Under the pieces are notes generated by a model. It did no database searches and was not told where the DNA came from. It saw only the letters and a list, made by a program, of their open reading frames with translations. From Ideonella sp. (GTDB lineage Bacteria; Pseudomonadota; Gammaproteobacteria; Burkholderiales; Burkholderiaceae_C): a stretch of 64,000 nt of DNA. Shown here piece by piece: positions 84-32,499 of the stretch. A program made the position numbers and the translations under genes. Position 1 is the stretch's first letter. Each line of letters starts with the position of its first letter. Where the stretch lies: the NCBI GenBank assembly GCA_015075165.1, contig JABTUY010000001.1, positions 682,001-746,000 of the forward strand. Reading direction: 5' to 3'.

Positions 84-416
84 ATGCACGCCGAGCCGAT
101 CTACAAGGGCGCGACCCGTCCCGCCATGAAATTGGGCATCCCGCTGGTGCCGCTGGTGGTGCTCGTCGGCACCGCTGCGCTCGCCATCCTGTGGCTCGGC
201 ACGCTGGTCAGCGGCTGGCTGGCACTGGCCGTGGCGCTGGCCAGCGTACCGGCTTTGGCGTGGATGCGCTTCGTCACCGTGCGCGACGACCAGCGATTCC
301 ACCAGATGTTCGTTGTGCTGAGGCTGCGCTTGCACGACCGCAACCACCGACTCTGGCGCGCCCGCAGCTACGCGCCCACGCTGTACCGAGGAGCTCGAGA
401 TGCCTGGCACGCGTAA
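84..416 (+). CDS. virB3: VirB3 inner-membrane component of type IV secretion system
   Basis: A 110-residue protein, normal size for VirB3. After a short N-terminus with the motif YKGATRPA (typical of the family), residues about 17-60 form one or two hydrophobic helices rich in Leu, Val and Ala. The C-terminal third is basic, with VTVRDDQRFHQMF matching the usual VirB3 tail before its contact with VirB4. It overlaps the virB4 start by 17 nt, which suggests translational coupling. VirB3 is known to sit in the inner-membrane complex with VirB4 and VirB6. Short VirB3 proteins diverge quickly, but position, size and topology agree. Confidence 0.85.
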   Translation: MHAEPIYKGATRPAMKLGIPLVPLVVLVGTAALAILWLGTLVSGWLALAVALASVPALAWMRFVTVRDDQRFHQMFVVLRLRLHDRNHRLWRARSYAPTLYRGARDAWHA

Positions 417-2895: not shown

Positions 2896-3299
2896 AGGTC
2901 ACATTGCTTGTCGCGCTAGGTGTGGTCGCGCTCGTCCACATCCCGGAAACCCGGGCGCAGTTCGTCAAGGGCAACGAGGCCGTGTCGGTAGCCGCCGACG
3001 GCTCGCGCAAGGTCGAGACACCGCCGACCGCCGGCGCGCTGCTGGCCAAGCCGTGCCCAGCCGCCGATGCCGCCTGCACCGGTAGCGGCTGGAAGATGGT
3101 CGAGACCACCGACGGCCTGATGGAGTGCACCGAGGTCTACGCGCGCCCCACCACCTGCAGGAACTCCACTTACGGGAGTGAGAAGCGTGCGCGGGTGTGG
3201 GTCGTCAAGTCCGGTGCCGAGTGGAAGCACTGCTCGTATCCCGACATCGGCAAGGGATGCACCAGCATCAAGAGCCTGCCGTCTCCTGTCGTTCAGTAG
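2892..3299 (+). CDS. Cys-rich secreted protein of unknown function in the T4SS operon
   Basis: The gene starts at ATG 2892, overlapping the virB4 stop as ATGA, with AAGGAG about 8 nt upstream; an in-frame start further upstream would erase the signal peptide. The 135-residue product begins with a signal peptide (MKVTLLVALGVVALV... cleaved near ETRAQ). The mature part has six cysteines (contexts KPC, AAC, MEC, TTC, KHC, KGC), suggesting three disulfides and a periplasmic or surface location. I do not recognise a named family. Its place between virB4 and virB6 suggests a small accessory of the channel, or an entry-exclusion or VirB7-like factor; this is inference. It has no lipobox, so it is not a standard VirB7 lipoprotein. 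Confidence 0.75.
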   Translation: MKVTLLVALGVVALVHIPETRAQFVKGNEAVSVAADGSRKVETPPTAGALLAKPCPAADAACTGSGWKMVETTDGLMECTEVYARPTTCRNSTYGSEKRARVWVVKSGAEWKHCSYPDIGKGCTSIKSLPSPVVQ

Positions 3300-3304
3300 C
3301 TGCC

Positions 3305-4372
3305 ATGTTCAACTGGGTCGGTACTCAGCTCAACACGATCCTCGGCACGTACGTGCTCGGGGTCGTGACAGCCCTGAGCGCGGCCATCGCACCGGTGGCG
3401 TTGTCGGCGATGACGCTGTGGGTCGCGCTATACGGCTGGGCCGTCCTGCGCCACGAAGTGCCGGAGTCCGCACCGACCTTCTTGTGGAAGGTGTTCAAGA
3501 TCGGATTGGTGCTCGCCTTCGCGCTGCAGGCGGGGTTCTACGTCGGGAATGTCGCGGACACGGCCAACGCGCTGGCCACCGGCGTGGCCACAACCTTCCT
3601 GCCTGCGTCAGCGAATCCGGCGACCGTCACGTCACCCTATGCGCTGCTGGACGCTTTCAACGACCAGGCCAGCCTCCTCGTGACCGACCTGCTCCGGGAA
3701 GCCGGTATCACGCGCCTGGATCTGCTGCTCGCCGCGGTCATCTGCTCGATCGGCAACGTCCTGTTCCTCTGCATGGCCCTCTTCGTCATCTCGCTGGCCA
3801 AGCTGCTGATGACATTCGTGATCGCCATCGGGCCTTTGTTCATCTTGTGCCTCGCGTGGCGGCCCACGCAACGTTTCTTCGACAGCTGGCTTTCGATGCT
3901 CCTCAACACCGTGGTGCTGGGCTGGTTCGCGTTCTTCGCCCTCGGCCTGAGCATCTACATGGGCCAGTCGATGGTGCAGGTCGTGCAATCGCAAGGCGGG
4001 TTCCTGGCGTCGACCTTCAACGCCGTCGGCGAAGGCCTCAAGTACTGCGTCGTCATGATCCTGATGGCGATCCTGTGCTTCCAGGCGCCGAGCCTGGCCG
4101 CAGCCCTCACCGGCGGTGCCGTGGTCCAGCAAGGCGTCCAGATGGTGCAGAACGTGATGATGGTCGCCGGCCTACGCTCGGCCACGACCACTAATCGGTC
4201 TGCTCTAGCGGCCGCCGCCCAGGGCGGTGCCATTCGCCACGCCGTTCTCTCCGGCACGGCCGGACCCGTCACTGGTGCGGTCACCACGCGAGGCGCCGCC
4301 CTGGCGCGCCAGGGTGTTGGCCTCGCCCGCACCGCCGCCTATCGCCTGGCCGCCCTGCGCGGCAGAGCATGA
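3305..4372 (+). CDS. virB6: VirB6/TrbL polytopic membrane protein of T4SS
   Basis: The start at ATG 3305 (MFNWVG) lies 5 nt after the previous stop; the frame is open further upstream, but that part overlaps the preceding gene. The product has 355 residues with at least five hydrophobic stretches, at about residues 18-48, 60-83, 138-190 (long, probably two helices), 195-220 and 240-265. A central segment with LAKLLMTFVIAIGPLFI and a following Trp (CLAW) matches the conserved VirB6 core. The C-terminal 90 residues are Ala/Arg-rich and variable, as usual. VirB6 is a channel-forming part of the inner-membrane complex. Here it precedes virB5, the reverse of the Agrobacterium order. Confidence 0.9.
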   Translation: MFNWVGTQLNTILGTYVLGVVTALSAAIAPVALSAMTLWVALYGWAVLRHEVPESAPTFLWKVFKIGLVLAFALQAGFYVGNVADTANALATGVATTFLPASANPATVTSPYALLDAFNDQASLLVTDLLREAGITRLDLLLAAVICSIGNVLFLCMALFVISLAKLLMTFVIAIGPLFILCLAWRPTQRFFDSWLSMLLNTVVLGWFAFFALGLSIYMGQSMVQVVQSQGGFLASTFNAVGEGLKYCVVMILMAILCFQAPSLAAALTGGAVVQQGVQMVQNVMMVAGLRSATTTNRSALAAAAQGGAIRHAVLSGTAGPVTGAVTTRGAALARQGVGLARTAAYRLAALRGRA

Positions 4373-4397
4373 CCAACACCGATCAAGGAGAGCATCC

Positions 4398-5099
4398 ATG
4401 AGAAGTCGCCTCGCCTCCCGCCTTGCCGGCGTCTGCATCAGCCTGTGCGTTGCCACGAGTGCACGCGCGCAAGGCATCCCGGTAATCGACATCGCCAACC
4501 TGATCCAGACGATCCAGCAGGTGATCAACGACATCACCAAGATCGAGAACCAGGTGCAGCAGATCACCCAGTTGCAGAGCCAGCTGGCCAGCATCAACGG
4601 CATGCGCAATATGGGCAACGTCTTCAACAGCACGGCGTTGCACAACTACGTCCCGGCCGAGGCCTTCAACGCGATCAACGCGGTCGAGCAATCGGGCTAC
4701 GGTGGGCTCACGACCAGCGGCAGAACTTTGCGCGACGTCGGCATGGTCTACAACTGCCTGGACCTCGCGGGGCCTGCGCGCACCCGCTGCCAGGCCGCAC
4801 TCGGCCAGCCGTACCAGCAGAAGGGCCTGCTGCAGGACGCGATGACCGCCGCGGCCGGCCGCCTCTCGCAGATCCAGGCGCTGATGAGCCAGATCAATGC
4901 CACCGGCGACCAGAAGGCGATCCTCGAGCTGCAGGCGCGACTGAGCGCAGAGAACGCAATGCTCGCCCACGAGACTTCGCAGATCCAGTTGCTGCAGGGC
5001 ATGGCCGACAGCGAGGAGCGCATCTCGCGATCTCGAGACCGCGAACGCCAGTACGAGATGCTCCAGCGCACCGGCCGCATCTCCGACTTCCTGCCCTAG
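4398..5099 (+). CDS. virB5: VirB5-type pilus-associated periplasmic protein
   Basis: The start at ATG 4398 is chosen because AAGGAG lies 7 nt upstream and because it restores a signal peptide (MRSRLASRLAGVCISLCV... cleaved near SARAQG). The product has 233 residues. The mature N-terminus is rich in Ile and Gln with heptad-like spacing (IANLIQTIQQVINDI, IENQVQQITQLQSQ), and a second helical region spans about 155-215. This is typical of the helical bundle of VirB5/TrbJ minor pilins. A Cys pair (contexts YNC, TRC) sits in the middle. VirB5 is a minor pilus-tip component. It is followed 8 nt later by virB8. Confidence 0.85.
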   Translation: MRSRLASRLAGVCISLCVATSARAQGIPVIDIANLIQTIQQVINDITKIENQVQQITQLQSQLASINGMRNMGNVFNSTALHNYVPAEAFNAINAVEQSGYGGLTTSGRTLRDVGMVYNCLDLAGPARTRCQAALGQPYQQKGLLQDAMTAAAGRLSQIQALMSQINATGDQKAILELQARLSAENAMLAHETSQIQLLQGMADSEERISRSRDRERQYEMLQRTGRISDFLP

Positions 5100-5107
5100 A
5101 GGTCACC

Positions 5108-5878
5108 ATGAACGCCATCGCAACCCCCGCCACGAGGCGGGGCCAGGCCGCCGCATGGCCAGGTGCAGCAAACAACGGCGTCGACGACGCCCTGCAGCAC
5201 AACCGCGCCTGGGAGCAGGACTACACACTGATGCTGGAGCGCTCCGAGCGCCGCGCCTGGTGGAGTGCCCTCGCCGGCGTGGCCGTCGGCCTCATCGGCA
5301 TCGCGGCAGTGTTCGCGCAAGGCCCACTGCGCCGCGTGGTCGAGATCCCGATCGTGGTTGACCGCGTCACCGGCGAGACCACGATCCAGCAGCGCCTGTC
5401 GGTCGAGACCATCCCGCCGCAGGAAGCGCTCGACAAGCACAACCTCGCGACCTTCGTGCGCGCCCGCGAGGGCTACAGCTGGATGTTCCTGCAGCGCGAT
5501 TTCGACCAGGTCGCCCGCATGGCGGTGCCTGCCGTGTTCAACGAGTATGGCCGCCTGTTCGACGGCGACGCCGCGCTGCAGAAGAAGATCGGCGCCAGCG
5601 AGGACTGGCGCATCCAGATCGTCGGCGTGCGCCTCGCAGCCGCGGGCCGCAGCGGCAACCGCGGTGAGGCCACCGTCACCTACGACAAGGTGGTCCACCT
5701 CGCCGACCGCAACCTGCCCGACGTGACCACGCGCCACGTCGCCAGCGTCGTCTTCCAGTACCAGCCCAAGGTCCTCGCCAGAGAGAAAGACCGCCTCGAG
5801 AACCCGTTCGGCTTCGTCGTCACCGCCTACCGCTCCGACCCGGAGATCAACACCACAGCGCGCGCCGCAAAGCCATGA
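5108..5878 (+). CDS. virB8: VirB8 periplasmic bridge protein of T4SS
   Basis: The start at ATG 5108 lies 8 nt after virB5. The product has 256 residues with the standard VirB8 layout: a cytosolic tail of about 50 residues, one membrane helix (about 51-70, WWSALAGVAVGLIGIAAVFA), and an NTF2-like periplasmic domain. Conserved features visible there include ALDKHNLATFVRAREGYSW and the ending NPFGFVVTAYRSDPE, the known VirB8 signature near the C-terminus. VirB8 nucleates the inner-membrane complex and contacts VirB9 and VirB10. Its stop overlaps the virB9 start (ATGA), so the genes are translationally coupled. Confidence 0.93.
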   Translation: MNAIATPATRRGQAAAWPGAANNGVDDALQHNRAWEQDYTLMLERSERRAWWSALAGVAVGLIGIAAVFAQGPLRRVVEIPIVVDRVTGETTIQQRLSVETIPPQEALDKHNLATFVRAREGYSWMFLQRDFDQVARMAVPAVFNEYGRLFDGDAALQKKIGASEDWRIQIVGVRLAAAGRSGNRGEATVTYDKVVHLADRNLPDVTTRHVASVVFQYQPKVLAREKDRLENPFGFVVTAYRSDPEINTTARAAKP

Positions 5879-6795
5879 ACACGCGCTCAACGATCGCGAC
5901 CGGCCTGCTTGCACTCTGGTGCGCAACGGCTGCTGTGGCCAACGGCCCTGATCCGCGCCTGCGCCAAGTCGTCTACGACGCGCACGCGGTCGTCACGGTC
6001 CCGGTCAAGCGCGGCGTCGTCAGCCTGATCGCGCTCGACCCCGATGAGACCATCACCGACGTTGCCGCCGGCCTCGGTGGCGACTGCACCAAACCCGACG
6101 CGGCCTGGTGCATCGCCGCGCAACCCGGCGGCCGCAACCTGTTCGTCAAGGCCAAGACCAACGCCGACGCGGCAAACAACCTCGTCGTCGTCACCGACCG
6201 CCGCACGCACACCTTCCAGTTCGTCGTGCTGCCCGACGGCGACCCCCGTGCGCCGGTCTACCGACTGACAGTCAAGGCCCCCGCGCCACCACCGCCGCCG
6301 ATCCAGCCGACACCTCGCGCCGCCGCGCAATGGTCAGAGCAGCCTCCCGAACGTGTCAAGCAGCCACCGTTTCGGCCCGCCGCCGGAGACATCATTGCCG
6401 AGCGCCTGCAGGCGAGGCCCCAGGTCCTGAACACCGACTACTCGATCGCCGAAGGCGAGCACTCGCAGGACATCGTGCCATCGCTGGTGTTCGACGACGG
6501 CCGCTTCACCTACTTCCGCTTCCCCGGCAACCGCGAAGTGCCGGCGGTGTTTCATGGGCTGGGAGACGGCAGCGAGACCCTTGTCAACGCGCGCATGGAA
6601 GACGACCTGCTGGTGATCGACCGCGTCAGCCGGCGGCTGATGCTGCGCGCCGGATCGGCGGTGGTCGGGGTGTGGAACGAAGCCTTCGACATCGACGGCG
6701 TGCCGCCCGCCGGCGGCACCACGGTGTCCGGCGTGCAGCGCACGCTGAGGTTCGGGCCCGCGCCGATCACGAGCCGCGGAGAACTCCTGCGATGA
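5875..6795 (+). CDS. virB9: VirB9 outer-membrane core complex protein
   Basis: The 306-residue protein starts with a signal peptide (MNTRSTIATGLLALWCATAAVA). The N-terminal domain has the VirB9 pattern of DPRLRQVVYDAHAV, GVVSLIALDPDE and NLFVKAKTNADAANNLVVVTD. A Pro-rich linker around residues 135-150 leads to a C-terminal beta domain with FDDGRFTYFRFPGNREVPAVF and IDRVSRRLMLRAGSAVVGVWNEAF, which hold the residues VirB9 uses to contact VirB7 and VirB10. Two Cys are present (contexts GDC, AWC). It overlaps virB8 and virB10 by 4 nt each. Function as part of the outer-membrane ring is established for the family. Confidence 0.94.
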   Translation: MNTRSTIATGLLALWCATAAVANGPDPRLRQVVYDAHAVVTVPVKRGVVSLIALDPDETITDVAAGLGGDCTKPDAAWCIAAQPGGRNLFVKAKTNADAANNLVVVTDRRTHTFQFVVLPDGDPRAPVYRLTVKAPAPPPPPIQPTPRAAAQWSEQPPERVKQPPFRPAAGDIIAERLQARPQVLNTDYSIAEGEHSQDIVPSLVFDDGRFTYFRFPGNREVPAVFHGLGDGSETLVNARMEDDLLVIDRVSRRLMLRAGSAVVGVWNEAFDIDGVPPAGGTTVSGVQRTLRFGPAPITSRGELLR

Positions 6796-8282
6796 ACGAC
6801 CGCATCGAGCCCGGCGACCTCGACCGCCTCGAAGGCGAGCTTCCCGATGGCAACGGCCAGGCAGCGAACACCATCACGCCGTTGCCGGGCGAAGCCGGCA
6901 TCCCCAGCGTCGCGCAACCCCGCACGATCACCGTCTCGCGCAAGGGGCTGCTGGCAGCCGGCCTGCTGATCGCGTCGCTGGTCGCGGTGGCCGTGCTGTC
7001 GCTGCAGCGCTTCGCGACCAGCGGCAAGAAGGTCGACGACGGCGAACCCAAGCGCGTCAGCGACCGGCCGGCCGCAGCCGCGGCGGAGCCGCGCAAGCTC
7101 GACCTGCCGCCGATCCTTGTCGCAGCCACCGCTCGGCCAAGCGGCGCGTCTGCTCCGACCCCGCGCATCCCTGCCCTCGTGCCAACCACGCAGGAAGTCA
7201 AGGACGCGGAGGCCATCGCGGTGCGGCGCACAGGCGCGAACGCGTCCGGAGCCAAGCCACCGTCGCCGCAGGACGCGCCGGTCATGGTGGTATCGACGCG
7301 ACCCCCAGTCCTGGCGCCGGCGGGGCTTGCAGCGCGACACACGGAGCCCATCGCAGCACAGACCAATCACGGCGGCGACGCACAACCGCCGAACGACTCG
7401 AACGACCCGCTGAGCGCGACGGCACGCAACCTCGACGCCTACCAACGCCAGCTGCAGGGCCTGCTCGACACGCTGACGCGCACCGCCGCGCTCGCAACCA
7501 AGCAGGCCGTTGCTGAACCCGATGGGGTGCCACCAATCTCGCTACCCAGCAGATCTCTGATCACCGCGGTGACTGGCGCGCCCAGCACAGCTTCCACGGC
7601 TTCATCCCAAGGACTTTTCGGCGGCCAGCTGCAAGGCTCCGCTACGCCGCGCGTGCTGGCGTCGAACCTCGGCAACCGCAGCCTGACCCTGCCCAAAGGC
7701 GCCGCCTTCACCTGCGCGCTCAAGACCAAGGTGATCAGCGCCGCCTCCGGCCTGGTGGGCTGCCAGGTTCTGCGCAATGTCTATAGCGACGACGGTCGCG
7801 TGCTGCTGATCGAGCGCGGCTCGCACATGGACGGCGAGTACCGCACCGCGTCGGTCCGGCCCGGCACCGTGCGCATCCCGGTGCTGTGGACCCGTATCCG
7901 CACGCCGCACGGCGTCACCGTCGACATCGACTCGCCGGGCACCGGCCAACTCGGTGAATCGGGCATCGACGGCTACGTCGACAACCGCTGGGGCGAGCGC
8001 ATCGGCGCGGCACTCCTGCTGTCGCTGATCGACGACGCGGCCAAGCTGACGATCCAGGGCCAGGCCAACGACCGCCAGGCCGAAACCGTCGTCCTGCAGT
8101 CGACCGCCGACACCACCAACCACCTGGCCGAGAAGGTGCTCGACAGCACCATCAACATCCCGCCGCTGAGCTACCAGAACCAGGGCGGCATCGTCGGCAT
8201 CTACGTCGCCCGCGACGTCGACTTCTCGCCGGTCTACGAACTCCGACGCTCCGCGCTGCCCGCAAGCAGCGCCACGCGGTGA
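6792..8282 (+). CDS. virB10: VirB10/TrbI trans-envelope protein of T4SS
   Basis: The start at ATG 6792 overlaps the virB9 stop. The product has 496 residues with the VirB10 architecture: a cytosolic tail, one membrane helix at about residues 52-70, a long Pro/Ala-rich periplasmic linker, and a C-terminal TrbI/VirB10 beta-barrel domain from about residue 290. Conserved elements include LPKGAAFTCALKTKV, GLVGCQVLRNVYSDDGRVLL, ERGSHMDGEY and the amphipathic region near IGAALLLSLIDD that forms the outer-membrane pore in the family. VirB10 spans both membranes and transmits the energy state to the outer ring. It overlaps virB11 by 4 nt. Confidence 0.95.
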   Translation: MNDRIEPGDLDRLEGELPDGNGQAANTITPLPGEAGIPSVAQPRTITVSRKGLLAAGLLIASLVAVAVLSLQRFATSGKKVDDGEPKRVSDRPAAAAAEPRKLDLPPILVAATARPSGASAPTPRIPALVPTTQEVKDAEAIAVRRTGANASGAKPPSPQDAPVMVVSTRPPVLAPAGLAARHTEPIAAQTNHGGDAQPPNDSNDPLSATARNLDAYQRQLQGLLDTLTRTAALATKQAVAEPDGVPPISLPSRSLITAVTGAPSTASTASSQGLFGGQLQGSATPRVLASNLGNRSLTLPKGAAFTCALKTKVISAASGLVGCQVLRNVYSDDGRVLLIERGSHMDGEYRTASVRPGTVRIPVLWTRIRTPHGVTVDIDSPGTGQLGESGIDGYVDNRWGERIGAALLLSLIDDAAKLTIQGQANDRQAETVVLQSTADTTNHLAEKVLDSTINIPPLSYQNQGGIVGIYVARDVDFSPVYELRRSALPASSATR

Positions 8283-9376
8283 CCGCGATGGACAGCCCGA
8301 TGAACAGCGCAACGCCGGTCCCCGACACCGCCCCTGCCGACTGGTGCGGCGATGCCACCTCGGTCATCGAGTTCATCAAGCCGCTGCGCGAGCAGCTCGA
8401 CACCCCCGGTGTCCTCGAGGTCTGCGTCAACATGCCCGGCGAACTTCTGGTCGAGACCACGGCCGGCTGGAAGACCCTCTCCGCACCGGCGATGACGCAG
8501 GAGCGCTGCCTGTCGCTGGCCACAGCGGTGGCCACCTATTGCGATCAGCAGATCAGCCAGGAGCGCCCGCTGCTGTCGGCGACGCTGCCGAGCGGCGAGC
8601 GCATCCAGTTCGTGATCCCGCCCGCGGTCACGCGCGGCACCGTGTCGATCACCGTGCGCAAGCCATCGAGCGTCATCAAGCGCCTCGCGGACTTCGAGCG
8701 CGAAGGCCTGTTCGAACGCACCGCCGCGAGCGACCGCGGCACCGACATCGAGTCGCACGAGCGCGAACTGCTCGACCTCCGGACGCAACAACGGTACGCC
8801 GACTTTCTGCGCCTGGCGGTGCAGCGGCACCAGACCATCGTCGTCAGCGGCCGCACCGGCTCGGGGAAGACCACCTTCATGAAAGGCCTGATCGAAGAGG
8901 TCGCGGCCCACGAACGGCTGATCACGATCCAGGACACCGCCGAGCTGCCGCTGCCGAACCACCCCAACGTCGTCCACCTCTTCTACAGCAAGGACGGCCA
9001 GGGCAGCGCGCGCGTGACCGCCAAGTCGTTGCTCGAAGCCTGCCTGCGCATGAAGCCGGACCGCATCTTTCTGGCGGAGGTGCGTGGCGACGAGTGCTTC
9101 TCGTTCGTCCGCCTCGCGGCCTCCGGTCACCCCGGCAGCATCACCAGCGTGCACGCCGGCAGTTGCGCGCTGGCGCTGGAACAGATGGCGCTGATGATCC
9201 GCGAGAGCGGCGCCGGCGGCGGCCTGACGATGCCCGAGATCCAGCGTCTGCTGGCGATCGTGGTCGACGTGATCGTCCAGTTCGACCGCGACGAGCGCGG
9301 CCGCTTCGTCTCCGAGATCGCCTACACGCCCCGCAGCCGGCGGCTCGGCCACGGCGCAAGTGGAGCCACTGCATGA
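8279..9376 (+). CDS. virB11: VirB11 hexameric traffic ATPase
   Basis: The start is GTG 8279 (GTGA overlap with virB10); ATG 8288 is an equally possible alternative. The 365-residue protein has an N-terminal domain of about 150 residues and a RecA-like domain with Walker A GRTGSGKTT at 191-199 (K197), an Asp-box segment TIQDTAELPLPNHPNVVHL, a Walker B region around 260-268 (RIFLAEVRGDE) and the His-box GHPGSITSVHAGS. These are diagnostic of the VirB11/PilT secretion ATPases. VirB11 switches the machine between pilus assembly and substrate export and docks on VirB4 and VirD4. It is coupled to virD4 by an ATGA overlap. Confidence 0.95.
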   Translation: MTAMDSPMNSATPVPDTAPADWCGDATSVIEFIKPLREQLDTPGVLEVCVNMPGELLVETTAGWKTLSAPAMTQERCLSLATAVATYCDQQISQERPLLSATLPSGERIQFVIPPAVTRGTVSITVRKPSSVIKRLADFEREGLFERTAASDRGTDIESHERELLDLRTQQRYADFLRLAVQRHQTIVVSGRTGSGKTTFMKGLIEEVAAHERLITIQDTAELPLPNHPNVVHLFYSKDGQGSARVTAKSLLEACLRMKPDRIFLAEVRGDECFSFVRLAASGHPGSITSVHAGSCALALEQMALMIRESGAGGGLTMPEIQRLLAIVVDVIVQFDRDERGRFVSEIAYTPRSRRLGHGASGATA

Positions 9377-11355
9377 ACAGCGTCGCGCTCTCCTTCACCG
9401 CCTGGCCGATGCCGCGCAAGGTCGCCGCCGCGCTCTTCGCGACAGCCCTGACAGTGATCCTGGTCTGCGCAGCAGCCTACCTGGCCGGCGCGCTCTTTCT
9501 GGTGCTCAACAAGCTCGATCCGCGCCGCGCGGATCTCTGGAGCATCGCGCACTACTGGGACGCCTATGCTGACGATCCCGCGCAGCGCAAGAAGCTAGTC
9601 GCGGCGATCGCCGCCCCCGGCTCCGCCCTTCTCGTCGTGCTGCCGGTCGCCCTGGTCGCCGCGCTGCGGCCGCGCCGCGCGCTGCACGGCGATGCGCGGT
9701 TCGCCAGCGCGGCCGAGATCGCGAGCGCCGGCTTGCTGCTCGCCACGACGAAGAGCAACACGCCCAGCATCCTGGTCGGGCGCCACCGTGGCCGCTTCCT
9801 CGCGCTGCCCGGCCAGCTGTCGGTGATGCTGTCCGCTCCAACGCGAAGCGGCAAGGGCGTCGGCGTCGTGATCCCGAACCTGCTGCACTGGCCCGACTCG
9901 GTGGTCGTGCTCGACATCAAGGGCGAGAACCATGCAGTCACGGCGGGCTATCGCGCCGCGCACGGCCAAGCGGTCTACGCGTTCTCGCCGTTCGACGAGG
10001 AGGCACGCAGCCACCGCTGGAACCCGCTGAGCGCGGTGCGCACAGGCGCGCTGCACCGCGTCGGCGACCTGCTTACGATCGGACAGGTGTTTTTCCCGAG
10101 CGACGGCATCGGCTCGTCGTCGGAGGCGTTCTTCAACGACCAGGCGCGCAACCTGTTCCTCGGACTCGGCCTCCTGCTGCTGGAGTCGCCCGCGCTGCCG
10201 CGCACGATCGGCGAGCTGCTGCGCCAGTCCTCCGGCAAGGGCCAGCCGCTCAGGGACCACCTCGCCGGACTGATCGCCAAGCGACGCGACGAGGGCAAAC
10301 CCTTCAGCGACGAGTGCGTCGACGCGCTGCAGCGGCTGATGGCCAACTCGGAGAACACGCTGTCCAGCATCGTCGCGACCTTCAACGCGCCGCTCACGAT
10401 CTTTGCGGACGCGGTAGTCGACGCCGCGACCAGCGGTGACGACTTCCGGCTGCAGGACGTGCGGCGGCAGCGCATGTCGATCTACGTGCGCATCCCGCCA
10501 AACCGCCTGGCCGCCGCGCGGCCGCTGCTGAACCTGTTCTTCTCGCAGCTGGTGAGCCTGAACACGCAGCGCCTGCCCGAGCAGGACAAGACGCTCACCG
10601 TGCAGTGCCTGCTGGTCAACGACGAGTTCGCCGCAATGGGCCGCGTCGGCGTCATCACTCACGCCGCGGCGTTTCTCGCGGGCTACAACCTGCGCCTGCT
10701 GACCGTCGTGCAGGCGATGTCGCAGCTCGACGCCGTCTACGGCGACAAGGAAGCCCGCACCTTCGCCACCAACCACGGTTTGCAGATCCTGTACGCGCCG
10801 CGCGAGCAGCGCGACGCCGACGAGTACAGCGCCATGCTCGGCTACTTCACCGAGCGCGCCACGTCGCGGGGCAGGAGCAGGTCTTTCGGTCACCACGGCC
10901 ACCACTCGGTCAGCCGCAACGAGAGCGATCAGCGCCGCGCACTGCTGCTGCCGCAGGAGTTCAAGGAGCTCGGCAGCGAACGGCTGGTCGTGATCCTGGA
11001 GAACTGCAAGCCGATCTTCGGCGAGAAGATTCGCTACCACCGCGATCCGGTCTTCACCGATCGCCTGCGGCCGCCACCGGTCGTGTCGGCGATCGACATG
11101 GATCTGCACCTGGCGCGCGTGCAGCAGCGCTGGCGCTACGCCAACGACGAACTGGCACCGACCGCACGCCTGAACGTCGAGGCGCTGGCGCACGACTTCA
11201 AGCAGCTGCCCGACCGGTTCGACGGCACGCCGGAAGACACAGCCGACATCCTCGTCCGCTTCTTCGGCACCGACACGAAGACCGGCGGTGCCGTGGAGCC
11301 GACGCCCGACGACGACGGCGTGCTGATCGACGAACCGGTCACAGCCGAACCTTGA
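9373..11355 (+). CDS. virD4: VirD4/TraG-type coupling protein
   Basis: The start at ATG 9373 overlaps the virB11 stop. The product has 660 residues with two N-terminal membrane helices (about 17-46 and 73-98) followed by the coupling-protein ATPase domain. Walker A reads SAPTRSGKGVG (154-164, K161), followed by VVIPNLLHWPDSVVVLDIKGEN. Walker B is LLVNDEFAAMG (D417, E418). Both are textbook VirD4/TraG motifs. It recruits the relaxase-DNA complex to the T4SS channel. Its presence shows that the system is conjugative rather than an effector-only system. The gene ends 7 nt before the OmpA-like lipoprotein gene. Confidence 0.96.
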   Translation: MNSVALSFTAWPMPRKVAAALFATALTVILVCAAAYLAGALFLVLNKLDPRRADLWSIAHYWDAYADDPAQRKKLVAAIAAPGSALLVVLPVALVAALRPRRALHGDARFASAAEIASAGLLLATTKSNTPSILVGRHRGRFLALPGQLSVMLSAPTRSGKGVGVVIPNLLHWPDSVVVLDIKGENHAVTAGYRAAHGQAVYAFSPFDEEARSHRWNPLSAVRTGALHRVGDLLTIGQVFFPSDGIGSSSEAFFNDQARNLFLGLGLLLLESPALPRTIGELLRQSSGKGQPLRDHLAGLIAKRRDEGKPFSDECVDALQRLMANSENTLSSIVATFNAPLTIFADAVVDAATSGDDFRLQDVRRQRMSIYVRIPPNRLAAARPLLNLFFSQLVSLNTQRLPEQDKTLTVQCLLVNDEFAAMGRVGVITHAAAFLAGYNLRLLTVVQAMSQLDAVYGDKEARTFATNHGLQILYAPREQRDADEYSAMLGYFTERATSRGRSRSFGHHGHHSVSRNESDQRRALLLPQEFKELGSERLVVILENCKPIFGEKIRYHRDPVFTDRLRPPPVVSAIDMDLHLARVQQRWRYANDELAPTARLNVEALAHDFKQLPDRFDGTPEDTADILVRFFGTDTKTGGAVEPTPDDDGVLIDEPVTAEP

Positions 11356-26398: not shown

Positions 26399-27334
26399 CT
26401 AGCGACCTCGCGCGTCGCGATCCACGTCGGCGTGGTCTGCACGGGCGAGCGTTCGCTCAACTTGCGAGACGTGGCGATTGATCGCCGCCGCGAGGTCACG
26501 GTCGCCGGTCAGTGCAGACCCCGAGAGTACCGACGCGATGTGACGCCACGACTGTGCGGCCGACTGCCGCGAGCCGTGCGCTGCCGAACCCGCCTTGGAG
26601 GCAGGTCGTTCGATCACCGGCCGACCGTCTTGCCTGGCCTTCGTGCGCCAGATGGGATCGTAGTTGCGGGCCACACCTCGCGTGGCTTGCCGCGTCGCCT
26701 CGGCCTCGACACCGAGGGCGCGCAGTTTCTCGGCAAAGCACTCCCGCCAGCGGTGTAGGTCCGCCTTGCGCGGGTTGAGGCGCAGGCCCGACTTGGACTC
26801 GATGCGCACGCTCAGGTGCACATGCGGATTGGCCTGGTGGTCGTGCAGGACCATCACGTACTTGTGATCTCCGAACTCCGTCCGCGCGAACTCGCGCGCC
26901 GCGCGCTGCACCGCGAGCGGATCCGTCCCGCGCGGCATCGACAGCATGACGTTCAAGGCCTCTCGCCGTGGGCTCGTGTCTTCGATCAACGCGCCGCCCA
27001 GGCGCCATTCCTCCGCCAGCTCCTGCAGGCCACCCCTGCCTCGGGAGACTTCGCCCTGGTCATCCTCGATGTCCAGGCGCCCGGCCTTGCTGATGTAGCG
27101 GAAGTGCGCAGCGATCGCCTTCATCCCGCGCCCTCCCCCGGTCACCTTCACCATCACCTGCGGTGCCCGGCGCACGACGGTGGCATGGATGCGCTGGCGC
27201 AGTGCGCGGGCACGCTCCTCGGTGGATGGATTGCGCAGGCGCGGGGTGCGAGAGGCGACGACCCGATTGCCGGGATAGAACAGACGGTCTCCCCAGCGAA
27301 CCAGGGTGCCGTCGATCGAGCTAGGCTCAGACAC
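26399..27334 (-). CDS. MOBP (VirD2/TraI-like) relaxase
   Basis: The start at GTG 27334 is chosen because AGGAG lies 7 nt upstream and the frame overlaps the mobC-like stop by 8 nt; ATG 27415 would lie within that gene. The product has 311 residues. Motif I with the likely nicking Tyr is AAHFRYISKAGRL. The metal-binding motif III is VLHDHQANPHVHLSVR, with the three His in the usual positions. A conserved FAEKLRALGVEAEATRQATRG region follows. This fits a MOBP relaxase that nicks at oriT and pilots the strand through VirD4. The protein is short, without a C-terminal helicase or primase. The putative oriT lies just past the neighbouring mobC-like gene. Confidence 0.9.
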   Translation of the reverse strand: MSEPSSIDGTLVRWGDRLFYPGNRVVASRTPRLRNPSTEERARALRQRIHATVVRRAPQVMVKVTGGGRGMKAIAAHFRYISKAGRLDIEDDQGEVSRGRGGLQELAEEWRLGGALIEDTSPRREALNVMLSMPRGTDPLAVQRAAREFARTEFGDHKYVMVLHDHQANPHVHLSVRIESKSGLRLNPRKADLHRWRECFAEKLRALGVEAEATRQATRGVARNYDPIWRTKARQDGRPVIERPASKAGSAAHGSRQSAAQSWRHIASVLSGSALTGDRDLAAAINRHVSQVERTLARADHADVDRDARGR

Positions 27335-27890
27335 GCGGGTTCTCCTGTCGTGAATGCTGGTCCCGGTTCGCCAGGACTTTGGACGCCACGGCCAGGTGCG
27401 CCCGGACGTCGGCATCCAGCGTCTCCAACCTCTGGCGGTACTCCTGCGCGGCCCGGACGTCGCCTTGGCGCAGCAGCGCGGTCAGGTGGGCGATGTGGCG
27501 GCGCAGCGCCGCCAGTTCGGCGTTGGAGCGCGTGAGCGCGGCGACTGCGCGGGCTCGTTGTTCGGCAGGTTCGGGTTCCGCGCCGGTGCGCGCAAGGTCG
27601 ATGACATAGGCACCGAGGGGACGACCGGCATGGCGGGCTCTGTGCACTAGACCGCGCGCTTCGTCTTCGCGGAGCCTCAGCGAGATCCGTACTCGACGCG
27701 CAGTGCGAACGTCGGATTCGACGGCGCCAGCCTCGACGGCGCCCGCGCAGCGCGTCAACGCCTCGCGGACGAACACGGAGACCGGAACGCCCCTCGCCCT
27801 CGCCCGCGCTTGAAGTGCTGGCTTCATCCCGCGCAGATCGATCGTCAACCGATCTCGCGTGGTTGGGACCGAAGGTGAAGACGCAGCCAT
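27327..27890 (-). CDS. MobC/TraJ-like relaxosome accessory protein with RHH segments
   Basis: The 187-residue protein starts at ATG 27890, about 40 nt from the nick motif. Two ribbon-helix-helix-like segments are visible: TIDLRGMKPALQARARARGV plus VSVFVREAL near the N-terminus, and RVRISLRLREDEARGLVHRA plus LGAYVIDLAR in the middle. The C-terminal 80 residues are helical (SNAELAALRRHIAHLTALLR). This fits relaxosome proteins such as MobC or TraJ that bind the oriT inverted repeat and recruit the relaxase. Its position between the relaxase and oriT supports this. The exact family is not certain. Confidence 0.75.
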   Translation of the reverse strand: MAASSPSVPTTRDRLTIDLRGMKPALQARARARGVPVSVFVREALTRCAGAVEAGAVESDVRTARRVRISLRLREDEARGLVHRARHAGRPLGAYVIDLARTGAEPEPAEQRARAVAALTRSNAELAALRRHIAHLTALLRQGDVRAAQEYRQRLETLDADVRAHLAVASKVLANRDQHSRQENPRV

Positions 27891-27910: not shown

Positions 27911-28003
27911 GGCGCCACGGCGCCTATCCTGTACTCATCAACGCAACAAGCTTAGGCTCGGATCGTGGTGATCGGGCTGACGAATTCGGGCCGAGATTCG
28001 TCA
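27911..28003 (+). other. Putative origin of transfer (oriT) with IncP-type nick motif
   Basis: The + strand carries CCTATCCTGT, which contains TATCCTG (27925-27931). This is the nick core of IncP plasmids and Ti borders (consensus YATCCTG/Y), so the predicted nick is between G27931 and T27932. It is directly preceded by GGCGCC-AC-GGCGCC (27911-27924). A perfect 8-bp inverted repeat, TGACGAAT (27978-27985) and ATTCGTCA (27996-28003), lies 46 nt downstream. The 150-nt gap between the mobC-like and parB genes is noncoding. Relaxase type, accessory protein and motif agree. The polarity predicts entry of the + strand from 27932 upwards. Confidence 0.75.
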
Positions 28004-28043: not shown

Positions 28044-28071
28044 CCGCTTGTTTAGCGCGCTAAACAAGCGG
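28044..28071. promoter_or_regulatory. 28-nt perfect palindrome with KorB-operator-like core
   Basis: The 28 nt are perfectly self-complementary and the core reads TTTAGCGCGCTAAA. The KorB operator of IncP plasmids is TTTAGC-S-GCTAAA (13 bp); this core has one extra central base. It overlaps the stop codon of the parB gene, whose product is KorB-like, so it is a good candidate for its operator or for the parS-like centromere site. A transcription terminator is an alternative, but no T-run follows. Confidence 0.6.
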
Positions 28072-28927
28072 CGCGCAGGTCAGCCAGGCGTTCACTGAGG
28101 GTGGCCAGGCTCTCTGGCTCGCACTCGCGCATCTGTTCGACGACCGCCTTGAGGGCGTCACATTGAGCGCTGGCACGCGCGAGCAACTTCGTCTGCTTGC
28201 GCGCCACCGCAGGCGCGGCCTTCGACCTAGTGGTTCGAGGCTTGGGCATCTCGCCCGTTGGGTTGATCAGCACGGTGGATCCGCCCTCATTGCCCCGCCC
28301 ACAAGCTCGCGCGGCTTGAAGCACCTCACGCGTGATCGGCACTCCCTGCGCAGCCAGTTCCAGGGCTCGATCGGGCAGCCGCTCATACAGCCGCCGCAAC
28401 TCGTAGAGCTCGGTCACCCCCTTGCACTGTCCGTTGCGGTATGCCGCCAGGAGCCAAGGCGGCGGATCGATCATCGTGCTGATCATCGTGATCAACGTCG
28501 GGCTCTTGCCCAGCCGGCGCGCGATCTCCGCCTGGCTCTCGCCAGCGGCCATTCTTCGCTTCACGAACATCGCCATCTCGAGCGGCTTGAGCCCCTCGCG
28601 CTGCTCGTTCTCAATCACCTGGTCGTAGCTGTCCGCCGCCTCGTCCACGAAGGCCGGGATGTGCGCAAGTCCGGCCAGCCTGGCAGCGCGCAGCCGTCTT
28701 GCGCCGAAGTTCAGCATCCAGCGCCCGGGCTCCGTTGGATGTGGCCGCACCGACACCGGCTGCTTCACGCCACGCTCGGCGAGCGTGGCGGCGAGCTCGC
28801 GCAGCGAGGCGTCATCGAACTCGCTGCGTGGCTGCTCTGGATCCTCGTCGATGTCCTGCAGGGCAATGGATCGGGGCGCTCCGCTCTCGCCCAAGGGTGC
28901 ATCGATGGCGTCCAGATCAAACCGCAT
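28052..28927 (-). CDS. parB: ParB/KorB-family partition protein
   Basis: The 291-residue protein starts at ATG 28927, overlapping the parA stop by 11 nt. The ParB N-terminal domain shows DIDEDPEQPRSEFDDASLRELAATL, GVKQPVSVRPHP and the CTPase motif region NFGARRLRAARLAG, followed by ENEQREGLKPLEMA. The HTH is ESQAEIARRLGKSPTLITMIS. The context PVSVRPHPTEPGRWMLNFGARR and YDQVIENEQRE resembles KorB of IncP plasmids. It would load onto a parS/operator site, and a KorB-like palindrome sits at the gene's own 3' end. The C-terminal 80 residues form a basic linker and a helical dimerisation region. Confidence 0.93.
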   Translation of the reverse strand: MRFDLDAIDAPLGESGAPRSIALQDIDEDPEQPRSEFDDASLRELAATLAERGVKQPVSVRPHPTEPGRWMLNFGARRLRAARLAGLAHIPAFVDEAADSYDQVIENEQREGLKPLEMAMFVKRRMAAGESQAEIARRLGKSPTLITMISTMIDPPPWLLAAYRNGQCKGVTELYELRRLYERLPDRALELAAQGVPITREVLQAARACGRGNEGGSTVLINPTGEMPKPRTTRSKAAPAVARKQTKLLARASAQCDALKAVVEQMRECEPESLATLSERLADLRAACLAR

Positions 28928-29729
28928 GACGCGCCTCCTGCTGAGTCAGCAGGTTCGCCAGGTGGCGCAGCGACGGCTCGATCTCCGCCCAGGTCTCGCG
29001 CGCGGCGGTCTTCTTCATCTCCCACAGCACCAGGCCCTCGGCCAGTGCCTCTGTGATCGCGGAGCGCTTTGGGATGCGCGCATAGTCGCCTGCCTTGTCG
29101 CTCAACGGGATCATCAGGGAACGGTGGCGCTCGATCAGCGCAATGAAGTTGGAGCGCTGGAACGGCGTGGGCTCCACGAGCGTGGGCAGCAGCCCGAGCA
29201 GCGTCAGCTTCGGGTTGAGCACGGCTTTGATCTTGTGGTATCCCACCCGCTGGTGATGCAGCAGGGACCGCACGCCGTCGATCGCCTCCTGATTCAGCTG
29301 GATGGGCGACAGCAGGTAGTCGGCGCTGGCCAGCGCGGCGATCACGCGGATGTCGGGGTTGGGGTTGGTGTCGATCACGCAGACGTCGAACTGCTGCGCG
29401 CTCGACGCCAGAAAGTTCCGGAATGCCTGCGCGAACGGCGTGTGCTGTGCCGGCTGGCGCTCCAGGCCCATCAGCACGTCGCTGGAAGGTACGAGGACGA
29501 AGCGCTCGGCAGCGACCCGGGCCCCGGCCGTGGTCAATAAGCGGTCGGCAGTGATCGACGCGACCACCGGCCGCTTCGAAAGCGTCAGTGGCTGCGTGAA
29601 GTTGCCTTGGTGGTCGAGATCGATCGCCAGCACGCGCCGGCCCTTCTGCGCCAGGTGGTGCGCCAGCAGCGTGGCCACGGCCGATTTGCCGACGCCGCCT
29701 TTTTGATTGGCGAGCACGAGGGTCTTCAT
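28917..29729 (-). CDS. parA: ParA-family partition ATPase
   Basis: The start at ATG 29729 (MKTLVLANQKGGVGKS) is clear because the deviant Walker A motif must follow directly; the longer upstream frame is Arg-rich noise. The 270-residue protein has Walker A KGGVGKS (10-16), switch I AIDLDHQGN and a later FDVCVIDTNPN Walker B segment. It lacks an N-terminal HTH, so it is a small Ib-like or IncC2-like ParA. With ParB it segregates the extrachromosomal form, or acts in maintenance of an integrative element. Its stop lies within parB. A strong hairpin lies about 120 nt upstream. Confidence 0.94.
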   Translation of the reverse strand: MKTLVLANQKGGVGKSAVATLLAHHLAQKGRRVLAIDLDHQGNFTQPLTLSKRPVVASITADRLLTTAGARVAAERFVLVPSSDVLMGLERQPAQHTPFAQAFRNFLASSAQQFDVCVIDTNPNPDIRVIAALASADYLLSPIQLNQEAIDGVRSLLHHQRVGYHKIKAVLNPKLTLLGLLPTLVEPTPFQRSNFIALIERHRSLMIPLSDKAGDYARIPKRSAITEALAEGLVLWEMKKTAARETWAEIEPSLRHLANLLTQQEARHAV

Positions 29730-29850
29730 CGGTGGAAGGCTCCGACGCGACCGAATGGGTCGGCCGGTGCTGCTCGCGCGGGCGCGCGTCCGGTCGAGGG
29801 CGCGCCAAGCGCGCGCACCGCTGCGATGATCGAAGCGGCGCGGCTCATGG

Positions 29851-29884: not shown

Positions 29885-29896
29885 GAGTTGCCCGGT

Positions 29897-30745
29897 TCAG
29901 TGCTTGAGCCGGCGCATCTCCTCGGCCAGCACCCACAGCGCGCGGTTCAGTCCCACGCCGCGATCGATGCTGGCGACCTCGCGCGTGCGCATGCGGCGGC
30001 CTTGCACCGTGCGGCCTGGCAAGCCGCCGCGCAGCGCGTTCTCGTGCACGCGCTGGAAGGTGCTCCACAGGCTGGGGCCGATGTCTTCGGCCCGCCTCGG
30101 CTCGTTGAGCTGGCTCGCGGTGACTGGCGCCGGCGGTTGCCCCTGGGCGTGGTCGCCGTAGCGCAACGCGAGTGCCGCGGTGGCGAAGGCCTCCTGCTCC
30201 TCGGGCTGCAACGGGAGGGCCTTCATCGCCTGCACCGAGTCGTCAACGCTGCGGAAGTCGTCGAGCACCCGGAACGCTGCGTCGATCACCTCATGCTGGA
30301 TGTTGCCCTTGTGCGGGATGCGGATGTCGTTGGCGATCTGGCCAACCACCAGGCCGTTGCAGCAGACGAAGCGGAACACCCCGGCCAGCATCTGATAGCT
30401 GCTGGCGCCGTCGTGGCTGTTGATGAGGATGATCTCGTTGGCCTCCGGCAGCACCGTGCCTTGGCGGCCGTGGCGCAGGCGGATCATGTGCTTGGTGTAC
30501 TCGGTCTTGCCTTCGATGCGGCTCAGGCCTTGCGCGACCATGAACGGCTCGAAGCCCTCGCGGGCCAGGCCGCGCAGCACGTCGATGGTGGGGATGTACG
30601 TGTAGCGCTCGGAGCGGCTCGCGTGCTTGGCGGCCGCGAAGATCGACGGCGCCGTGTGGCGCATCTGCTCTTCGCTCAGCGGTAGTTCGCTGCGCAGCAC
30701 GCGCGTGCTGTTCGCAAAGCGGGTGGCCAATGTGGGTGTGTGCAT
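29897..30745 (-). CDS. DUF932 (YfjQ/phage-plasmid) family protein
   Basis: The 282-residue protein matches DUF932: RYTYIPTIDVLRGLAREGFEPFMVAQG, HMIRLRHGRQGTVLPEANEIILINSHDGASSYQMLAGVFRFVCCNGLVVG and IQHEVIDAAFRVLDDF are characteristic. Proteins of this family are common on plasmids, ICEs and prophages, often beside ssb and anti-restriction genes; no biochemical activity is firmly known. Here it sits between ssb and parA in the predicted leading region, where early-expressed protection genes are usual. An anti-defence role is inference only. Confidence 0.9.
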   Translation of the reverse strand: MHTPTLATRFANSTRVLRSELPLSEEQMRHTAPSIFAAAKHASRSERYTYIPTIDVLRGLAREGFEPFMVAQGLSRIEGKTEYTKHMIRLRHGRQGTVLPEANEIILINSHDGASSYQMLAGVFRFVCCNGLVVGQIANDIRIPHKGNIQHEVIDAAFRVLDDFRSVDDSVQAMKALPLQPEEQEAFATAALALRYGDHAQGQPPAPVTASQLNEPRRAEDIGPSLWSTFQRVHENALRGGLPGRTVQGRRMRTREVASIDRGVGLNRALWVLAEEMRRLKH

Positions 30746-30811
30746 ATGAAACCTCGATGGTGTTGCGACCGGACGGAACGCCCGCTCCGCCCGCTTCGCT
30801 GGTTGCGTGGA

Positions 30812-31240
30812 TCAGGTACGGGCCTTTGCGCTCTGGGCGGCAACGCGTTCCGCGGCGTTCATCTCATCGACGAAGCCGTGGTGCGATCGCCTCTGCGCGG
30901 CCTGCGCCTTGGTGTCGAGGTAGTCGATCTCCTCGCACGTGAAGGCTAGGCCGTAGATGGTCTCGCCGTCTTTTTCGTAGGTGTGGTTGCGCACCCGGCC
31001 GACCACGTTGACGTGGCTGCCCTTGCCGAGAAACCTCGCGGCGTTCTCGGCCTGCGCGCCCCACAACGTCCACAGGATCGCGGTGGCCTCCTCTTCGCGC
31101 GCCTCACCGCTGCCCCAGCGCACGTTGCTGATCGCGGTGAGCTGGGCCTTGGCGATCGGGCCGTCGCGACCGTTGACCTGTTCGAGCCGAACGTCTCCTG
31201 CGAGATGAGCGTTGCGCTGGATGACCAATACATGGGCCAT
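30812..31240 (-). CDS. ssb: Single-stranded DNA-binding protein
   Basis: The start at ATG 31240 has GAGGAG 7 nt upstream. The 142-residue product has an OB fold with SSB features: VNGRDGPIAKAQLTAISN, LWGAQAENAARFLGKGSHVNVVGRVRNHTYEKDGETIYGLAFTCEEIDYLD. The final acidic tip (DDxPF) of chromosomal SSB is missing; the C-terminus is QSAKART, so it may not bind the host SSB interactome in the usual way. Plasmid-type SSBs like this are leading-region proteins that coat incoming DNA. A large hairpin lies 140-240 nt upstream. Confidence 0.9.
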   Translation of the reverse strand: MAHVLVIQRNAHLAGDVRLEQVNGRDGPIAKAQLTAISNVRWGSGEAREEEATAILWTLWGAQAENAARFLGKGSHVNVVGRVRNHTYEKDGETIYGLAFTCEEIDYLDTKAQAAQRRSHHGFVDEMNAAERVAAQSAKART

Positions 31241-31320
31241 GACATGACTCCTCACGAGCACGACCGGCCGGGCTCCATCGGACCCCTGAAAACCGATCCT
31301 CTCGCTCGGACTCCCTCGCT

Positions 31321-31338
31321 CCCGCCCTGGGGGGCGGG
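31321..31338. repeat. GC hairpin upstream of ssb
   Basis: CCCGCCC (31321-31327) pairs with GGGCGGG (31332-31338) over a 4-nt loop, about 80 nt before the ssb start. It is followed by a G-run that reads GGGGGG and could join with neighbouring G tracts. It probably belongs to the same structured region as the nested hairpin at 31383-31476. Confidence 0.55.
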
Positions 31339-31382
31339 CGGGGGGTAGGGGCGGCTGTTCAGGAGTTCAGCAGCGCAATCGG

Positions 31383-31476
31383 TGAGCCGATTGCCTGGCC
31401 CACCGATCGAAGATCCCCCCACAAGTCCCCCTCATCGAAGACGGGGGCGCGTGGGGGGAGCCGGTGGGCCCGCTCA
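31383..31476. repeat. Nested inverted repeat (multi-segment hairpin) upstream of ssb
   Basis: Three paired blocks are nested: GGCCCACCG (31397-31405) with CGGTGGGCC (31462-31470), TCCCCCCAC (31414-31422) with GTGGGGGGA (31451-31459), and CCCCC (31427-31431) with GGGGG (31443-31447). An outer TGAGC (31383-31387) pairs with GCTCA (31472-31476). The blocks are separated by small internal loops, and ATCGAAGA occurs twice in the left loop and the apex. The structure would be very stable in single-stranded DNA or RNA. It lies 140-240 nt upstream of ssb in the predicted leading region, so an Frpo-like single-strand promoter is a serious possibility (inference). Confidence 0.7.
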
Positions 31477-31933
31477 GGCTATGCGCGCGACGCCAGTGGT
31501 CCCGGAGCACGAGCGGCCGGTGTGACAGCGCAGCTGGTGCAACGGCTGCGGCGCAGGGAACGCCCACGTTCACGAGGACCGGCGGCACCGCGAGCGACGT
31601 GCCACCAAGAGAGCCGAAGGCGAGCGACTGGCGCGGCGTTCGAGCCGGGCTGAGCTGAATTCGGTGTTCGGTATTGGCGGCCCGGCGTCGGGCGTGGCGC
31701 GTGTTCGGGGGACGATCTGGACCGAGCGCAGCTGACGCAGCGCAGCGGTGTGCGCGAGCATCGGGCAAGTTCGTCAAGTGGGCGCGTCGTTCTCGCGCAG
31801 CGAGAAGGACATCAGCGACCGCGAACCCGGACACGGGACGGGCCGCCCCTGCATTTGCGTCGCCGTGCCCAGCAATGCACCGAGGGATAGGGGATCTCGA
31901 CATCGCGCGCTCGCATTCCGTCGGCCAAAGCGC
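31477..31933. other. Poorly coding GC-rich stretch
   Basis: No frame here shows protein-like composition. A 178-codon - strand frame covering 31367-31903 runs through the nested hairpin and is Arg/Ala/Ser/Pro-rich without motifs, so I treat it as spurious. The stretch may hold regulatory sequence for ssb or decayed element DNA. Confidence 0.45.
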
Positions 31934-32134
31934 TCAAGACAGCCCTGCGGGCAGTGACTCGGCGGGTTCAGCCTCCATCATCTCTGCAGGAGTCAGTTCT
32001 ACGAGCTTGACCGCTTCCTCTACTGGCGCGTAGCGCCACTGATCGACGTCGTCGAGCTCGACCGCCACTACGCTGCGTTTGTCTTGCTCATCCGGCCCGA
32101 GCTTCGAGTCGGGCTTGTGCATGCACCGCATCAA
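31934..32134 (-). CDS. Small acidic hypothetical protein
   Basis: A 66-codon frame, or 62 codons from the internal ATG at 32122 (MHKPDSKLGPDEQ). The composition is protein-like and acidic (VVAVELDDVDQWRYAPVEEAVKLVELTPAEMM), unlike the Arg-rich shadow frames around it. I do not recognise it. It is divergent from a possible short gene at 32185. It may be an accessory of the mobile element or a remnant. Confidence 0.35.
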   Translation of the reverse strand: MMRCMHKPDSKLGPDEQDKRSVVAVELDDVDQWRYAPVEEAVKLVELTPAEMMEAEPAESLPAGLS

Positions 32135-32184
32135 CGGAGCGCGTCGGCGTTCATGGTCAGCGTCGTGGCGGGCTCCGCCACCAC

Positions 32185-32499
32185 GTGGCCCGGGGCGCCT
32201 GGGACGTTATCGTGCGGTTTCTGAACAACGGGGACGTGACGGCGGATAGCCCGGGCTGGCGTGACAAGAGCGAGGCATGGCTGAGGGCCGCGGCGCCGAC
32301 CGTGCGGTTGGAGCTCATCCGGGCGCTGGCGCGATCGGACAAGTTGCCGGATACCTCCCCGAATGTCGAGCAGGTCATCAGCCGTTTCCTGCGCTACGAA
32401 AGCTGGGGGGCAGCGCACTTGTACCCGATTCGGTGGAGGGCACGAACGGCGGCTTCATCGCCGACTGCAGCGACGGGCGGCGCCTGCCGTGGGAGATGA
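32185..32499 (+). CDS. Short hypothetical protein or fragment
   Basis: A 104-codon frame starting at GTG. The first 75 residues look protein-like (WDVIVRFLNNGDVTADSPGW, APTVRLELIRALARSDKLPD, NVEQVISRFLRYESW) with amphipathic helices. The last 30 are low-complexity Arg/Ala/Thr, which suggests a frameshift or a fusion to noncoding sequence. I know no family. It may be a decayed gene at the junction of the mobile element. Confidence 0.3.
   Translation: MARGAWDVIVRFLNNGDVTADSPGWRDKSEAWLRAAAPTVRLELIRALARSDKLPDTSPNVEQVISRFLRYESWGAAHLYPIRWRARTAASSPTAATGGACRGR

Follow-up and report, generated by a model that had tools for sequence, protein, structure and literature searches.

The hairpin upstream of ssb is real and belongs to a conserved element of about 200 nt, at positions 31290-31490 of the window (the whole stretch of 64,000 nucleotides that was analysed). 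The element folds, keeps its pairing while its sequence changes, leans towards the + strand and is positioned before protection genes that have the + strand as template. What might such an element do? By analogy with the Frpo promoters of the F plasmid, we consider it fairly probable that it acts in cis as a single-strand promoter or priming signal of a conjugative leading region.

The genomic setting

Part of an integrated conjugative element lies in the window, with type IV secretion genes, a relaxase and leading genes (Table 1). Between the secretion genes and the relaxase lies a type I restriction-modification cassette with an AAA ATPase (15959-24849), whose G+C content is about 60% vs roughly 65-70% in the surroundings. 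A pyruvate-ferredoxin-oxidoreductase-type gene at 33351-36758 looks chromosomal. The parB stop is overlapped by a perfect palindrome, GCTTGTTTAGCGCGCTAAACAAGC (28046-28069), which we take to resemble a KorB-type operator; no match to the 13-base KorB pattern itself was obtained.

Table 1. Positions of the main features in the window
Feature	Position	Strand	Basis
Type IV secretion genes (VirB4-, VirB8-, VirB9-, VirB10-, VirB11-, VirD4-like)	400..11355	+	Pfam
MobA/VirD2-like relaxase, true start uncertain	26399..27415	-	PF03432, 8.2e-10
NikA/MobC-like relaxosome accessory protein	27327..27890	-	PF21983, 2.4e-07
Putative oriT core	27911..27932	+	GGCGC-CACG-GCGCC inverted repeat, then TATCCTG|T; pNRS527-2, six loci
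parB with KorB domain	28052..28927	-	PF02195, PF08535
parA	28917..29729	-	PF13614
DUF932 protein	29897..30745	-	PF06067, 1.9e-47
ssb, first gene behind the hairpin element	30812..31240	-	PF00436, 7.3e-08; phrog_44
Block A: GATCCTCTCGCTCGGACT (31295-31312) and G+C-rich hairpin	31290..31350	+	homologues, fold
Wider imperfect hairpin	31371..31490	+	by-eye reading of homologues, fold
Main hairpin	31397..31470	+	fold, homologues, pairing test

The hairpin and its fold

The main hairpin consists of an outer stem, an asymmetric unpaired ATCGAAGA (31406-31413), a C6/G6 stem, a CAAGT side, a C5/G5 stem and an apex loop. The earlier note had described nested blocks of 9, 9 and 5 bp and an outer block of 5 bp, and all are present: GGCCCACCG/CGGTGGGCC at 31397-31405 / 31462-31470, TCCCCCCAC/GTGGGGGGA at 31414-31422 / 31451-31459, CCCCC/GGGGG at 31427-31431 / 31443-31447 and the outer TGAGC/GCTCA at 31383-31387 / 31472-31476. 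They had been placed 140-240 nt before ssb, and the measured distance to its start codon at 31240 is 143-236 nt.

Folded as DNA, the + strand of 31370-31485 gives z -4.53 and that of 31365-31488 gives z -5.37, with 0/200 shuffles as good in either case. Over the longer segment first proposed for folding, 31250-31500, the fold reaches only z -1.99 (7/200 shuffles as good), a signal diluted relative to the shorter segments. The - strand of 31365-31488 folds well too (z -4.46). In single-sequence folds a local hairpin at 31375-31394 competes with the outer 5-bp block. The same local hairpin partly replaces, in the window copy, the wider hairpin that many relatives form by pairing GCAGC..GTGAGCCGGT with ACTGGCGCAC..GCTGC, as read by eye. 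The apex stem ends with a conserved GAT, which is part of GATAAA in most Nitrosomonadales copies shown and of GATCTT in many Burkholderiales copies. In the core the letters hardly vary, which is in part a consequence of the search pattern, since it required them.

Block A folds only weakly beyond chance (z -1.49). Its positions 31329-31351 carry four G runs on the + strand, a G-quadruplex motif seen in many but not all copies; as a conserved feature the G-quadruplex was dropped by eye, the four G runs being missing from some copies.

The second hairpin that had been reported upstream of parA (29851-29884) exists and sits directly behind the DUF932 stop. The gap between DUF932 and parA (29730-29896) contains several stems (z -3.16), and 8/9 relatives shown have a near-perfect stem with other sequence at this place, the exception being L108. 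This gap is possibly a second structured site.

A family of copies

The intergenic sequence 31240-31540 matches 20/199 genomes, its own genome counted, the weakest matches being short pieces. The genome itself has a second copy, likewise preceding ssb, and no third exact core. Alignment of 17 loci gave two conserved blocks, 31290-31350 and 31397-31470 (the L014 locus stops short of the second). Short searches located both blocks in Diaphorobacter and Eleftheria plasmids and related hairpins in two Nitrosospira plasmids. Block A adjoins the hairpin in most places from these searches; at their stringency it was not found in L015, L018 and L030. The Eleftheria plasmid (L152, NZ_CP106950.1) has three copies, at 633, 22136 and 47075, near-identical over the stretch shown, which precede an N6-methylase gene, a DUF932 gene and a hypothetical gene.

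A scan of genome contigs with the core pattern gave at least 117 stretches; 101 of the 117 listed have betaproteobacterial record titles. Elsewhere the exact pattern is rare: 2/300 genomes of the order and 2/398 of the phylum have it, the own genome within each. From all loci 137 places were taken, six at locus ends being skipped; 123 were kept and 14 dropped as chance matches (L037, L045, L051, L056, L066, L068, L079, L082, L089, L099, L105, L118, L131 and L146). The dropped loci all have non-proteobacterial titles and low arm scores, the highest being 32.5 vs 33.0 for the lowest kept. An exception is L046, which the script misread; it was kept at an arm score of 27.6 and excluded from the strand test. 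Two kept loci are metagenome-assembled genomes titled Myxococcota and Acetobacteraceae (L076 and L130). Because some genomes are present in more than one collection, twice in all (L004 and L110 are an example), distinct cores were recounted; all copy counts are samples and not totals.

Pairing is kept while the arms change

Is the pairing itself conserved, or only the letters? By sequence, the outer arms of 63 copies form 11 clusters. Between clusters these arms cannot be aligned, and RNAalifold on a MAFFT alignment of 59 of 66 representatives therefore recovers core pairs only (9 in all, 3 of them with double changes); for that reason self-pairing was compared with cross-pairing. The mean arm pairing score is 12.2 with a copy's own partner, 7.0 with the partners of dissimilar copies (similarity under 0.55; laxer limits raise this score to 8.4) and 6.8 with shuffled partners. 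Own pairing exceeds the 95th percentile of shuffles in 57/63 copies and every dissimilar partner in 34/63. The 63 copies are those of the 66 representatives in which the script found the second G run, three being left out. Two single-member clusters of the 11, L095 and L127:3567, pair with themselves hardly better than the cross score. Thus, the conservation of pairing in related elements that had been proposed as a check is borne out: the outer arms differ yet still pair.

Which strand is folded?

Wobble pairs and folding energy lean towards the + strand. Among 98 distinct copies, scored symmetrically for the two strands, in-stem mismatches read on the + strand are G.T in 66 cases v A.C in 29, and 33 v 9 where two pairs flank the mismatch. 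The + strand has the more stable fold in 47/66 copies and the - strand in 18/66, and 264 control segments show the reverse lean (118 + v 143 -). Within CCACC, the arm type to which the window copy belongs, the wobble bias is weak: the 65 copies give 27 v 25 with one flanking pair and 14 v 5 with two. The 33 copies outside this type, from Nitrosomonadales and some Burkholderiales and with the own genome's second copy among them, give 39 v 4.

Recounted by alignment columns, the CCACC type has 39 v 19 cells but 11 v 11 column pairs, and the mixed rest has 1 v 16 cells, with the sign reversed. The figure for the rest is distrusted, since unrelated arms had been aligned separately and counting this set copy by copy gives 39 v 4. 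In the control for mutational bias, the CCACC type has 30 C>T cells v 17 G>A and 9 A>G v 2 T>C (column pairs 11 v 11); the mixed set, in the alignment that is distrusted, again has the sign reversed, at 0 v 7 for the first comparison and 1 v 9 for the second. Mutation bias on exposed single strands possibly contributes to the lean. The lean cannot separate single-stranded DNA from + strand RNA.

The genes that the copies face

Because the searches that gave the loci used the hairpin or non-coding DNA, and not these genes, the gene association is not built in. Of 101 places with distinct cores, 7 have under 450 nt of flank and 94 were counted. Behind 81/94 there is a recognised first gene with the + strand as template: SSB in 61, ArdC in 11, ArdB in 4, a recurrent small ORF in 3 and DUF932 in 2. 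The other 13/94 have another or no recognised first gene; with identical copies counted in, the figure is 99/115 with a recognised one. Pfam confirms representatives of each named family (PF03230 for ArdB). The median gene start relative to the core, identical copies included, is -207 for SSB, -188 for ArdC, -142.5 for ArdB, -186.5 for the small ORF and -205 for DUF932. Near the copies no match to these families has the opposite orientation, and the sole match on the wrong side is the small ORF in L141. Exceptions with annotated genes in the expected orientation are the Diaphorobacter, Eleftheria and second pNRS527-2 copies, and the copy L030:6161 has a wrongly oriented gene adjoining it.

The recurrent ORF, of about 100 aa, lies directly behind the element (L111:5142-5474, L127:3851-4153). 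It has no Pfam match in L111, where the next protein has a weak ParB-like match, and is a candidate for an uncharacterised leading-region gene.

Transfer polarity

The earlier note had taken the + strand to be the incoming one, with ssb, DUF932, parA and parB all templated by it. All four genes are indeed on the - strand, and the polarity is supported as likely by an oriT-like site, the NikA-like and relaxase context and the gene order of pNRS527-2. At 27925 the + strand has the motif TATCCTGT, which is preceded by an inverted repeat and adjoins the NikA-like gene; TATCCTG|T would be the nic site. The window contains 4 matches to YATCCTGY with 5.6 expected, neither rarer nor commoner than chance, and the weight of the oriT call therefore comes from context. 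The same layout is present in L059, L067, L110, L114, L116 and L137. In the 54 loci that extend 3 kb or more to the left, repeat-plus-nic sites number 9 on the + strand (about 1.1 expected from shuffles) and 2 on the - strand, most of these loci having none. Six are of the form GCCTATCCTGC, all on the + strand and 3.6-4.7 kb left of the element; the - strand sites are one left of the L075 copy and one in L130.

In the complete plasmid pNRS527-2 the oriT side reads relaxase, mobC, an inverted repeat with TATCCTGC (+ strand, 16507) and an IS3 transposase, followed by repA, a TrfB-related gene, parB, parA, ssb, an LPD29 gene, an ArdC-like gene and the element. A second copy in this plasmid (L150 14418-14650; 14567) is on the last-transferred side of oriT, where it precedes DUF4160 and DUF2442 genes and, further on, a gene for an SOS-response-associated peptidase. 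In the Diaphorobacter plasmid no oriT or nic site was found, and about 30 kb separate its element copies from the relaxase region; neither for this plasmid nor for that of Eleftheria was an orientation by oriT obtained. Given an oriT-like site next to genes for a NikA-like protein and a relaxase, an arrangement shared with pNRS527-2, the + strand is very likely the transferred (T) strand. On the same gene order, the leading genes very likely lie between oriT and the element, as in F.

How might the element work?

From the putative oriT, the T-strand would extend rightwards, beginning at about 27932. On the incoming + strand, 31290-31490 would fold as a long imperfect hairpin with an accessory hairpin. 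RNA synthesis would begin at the folded strand and proceed leftwards with the T-strand as template, and the product would be an immediate mRNA for ssb, DUF932, parA and parB; the same RNA might also supply a primer for second-strand synthesis. Conversion to duplex would erase the structure and end the burst of expression. The use of RNA polymerase, the timing and the shut-off are inferred by analogy with the Frpo of F.

The chief rival is second-strand priming, alone or together with transcription. As an initiation site only, the folded T-strand would load primase, primosome or RNA polymerase, and its position relative to genes would be secondary. The + strand lean fits this, as do the several hairpins in a row in the folds made for comparison with F and the pNRS527-2 copy on the last-transferred side. 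There is no need, however, for a pure primer site to face genes, and the distance to the first gene is similar across families (medians of -207, -188 and -205 for SSB, ArdC and DUF932); priming alone is unlikely, if still to be reckoned with. Somewhat less credible again is a site that acts in double-stranded DNA, an operator or cruciform that governs an ordinary promoter of the leading operon. The upstream position would suit it, the near-invariant core letters resemble those of a protein site (partly demanded by the search pattern) and a minority of arm types supplies most of the wobble signal, but a duplex site predicts neither outer arms that vary yet pair nor a favoured + strand.

Could the hairpin instead function as RNA? 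As part of the 5' untranslated ssb mRNA, i.e. on the - strand, it might be an attenuator or an autoregulatory site; the position fits a leader and the - strand of the window copy folds well. The lean of wobble pairs and energy towards the + strand argues against such a leader, the Rfam comparison gave no family and the same element stands ahead of different gene families, so that this role seems very improbable. A small RNA transcribed rightwards from the + strand would fit the lean too, but it would leave the spacing to the leftward genes unexplained and likewise has no Rfam family; within 29700-32200 there is no sigma-70-like site, and the sole terminator-like site is inside ssb. We give it the least credence of all, close to none.

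Comparison with known systems

Frpo, like ssiD, ssi2 and ssi3, belongs to the single-strand promoters of F and ColIb-P9 (PMC9849209, PMC11541004 and PMC7736820); in F, PMC9849209 reports, deletion of Frpo1 or Frpo2 abolished the early rise of a reporter in recipients. The paired -35/-10 boxes facing ssb that the earlier note had expected are not borne out. Across 93 copies there is no excess of sigma-70 boxes (mean best score 6.95 vs 7.36 in mononucleotide shuffles), and the best match, which falls in the same 10-nt bin at the apex in 39/93, is weak and has its first hexamer in the loop region. Four copies compared with F 50000-67500 gave no similarity to the F leading region (best E-value 0.17). 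With neither sequence similarity nor a -35/-10 pair above chance, we say that the element probably works like Frpo and do not place it in the Frpo sequence family. The Frpo-like arrangement suggested at the outset nevertheless stands in its polarity, template, place before ssb, + strand pairing, anti-restriction neighbours and F-like apex distance, and fails in the boxes and the similarity to F.

Other structured elements offer partial parallels. The STAXI motif (RF01728) is described in PMC2864571 as repeated pseudoknots of Enterobacteriales, near ssb, integrase, topoisomerase and antirestriction genes, and its authors discuss a possible action as single-stranded DNA; like it our element is a structured motif, but one with no Rfam match. 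Rfam covariance models gave nothing at gathering score in the window and, in nine loci, four matches (E up to 1), each falling far short of the gathering score; three are to miRNA families, on the hairpins, and one is to PtaRNA1, elsewhere. The sso of ICEBs1, described as a replication origin in Bacillus subtilis (PMC4595007), is likewise a single-strand signal of an ICE.

Has the element been described before? None of the open-licence papers found on Frpo, leading regions, single-stranded DNA promoters, structured motifs and single-strand initiation appears to describe it, and the sole match to the core letters among such papers is of 13 letters, in a lamin paper. Two Frpo surveys (PMC11541004 and PMC12826799) were seeded with five known Frpo/ssi sequences and with -35/-10-consensus candidates in four islands, followed by BLAST; built on similarity and consensus boxes, they would probably miss this element. 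Our wider proposal is tentative: betaproteobacterial ICEs and plasmids may have evolved single-strand promoters independently, read by shape and a G/C core and not by boxes, which switch on SSB, ArdC, ArdB and DUF932 genes when the T-strand arrives. If true, early expression from the incoming strand would be a wider strategy with more than one origin, and in Burkholderiales and Nitrosomonadales the core pattern would offer a handle on leading regions and on candidate anti-defence genes.

Unlike Frpo, the element has a G+C-rich, near-invariant core, is mainly betaproteobacterial and has one copy on the last-transferred side, in addition to having no -35/-10 boxes found and no similarity to the F leading region. 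In other respects it resembles the Frpo of F and ColIb-P9. The copies are in the leading region, with the T-strand as template and ssb or an anti-defence gene next, except for the second pNRS527-2 copy, L030:6161 and the 13/94 mentioned above. The F region likewise folds as a long imperfect hairpin, and the distance from the apex to ssb is 197 nt in the window and 201 nt in F. As in F, for which PMC9849209 describes Frpo1 and Frpo2, more than one similar copy can occur on a plasmid.
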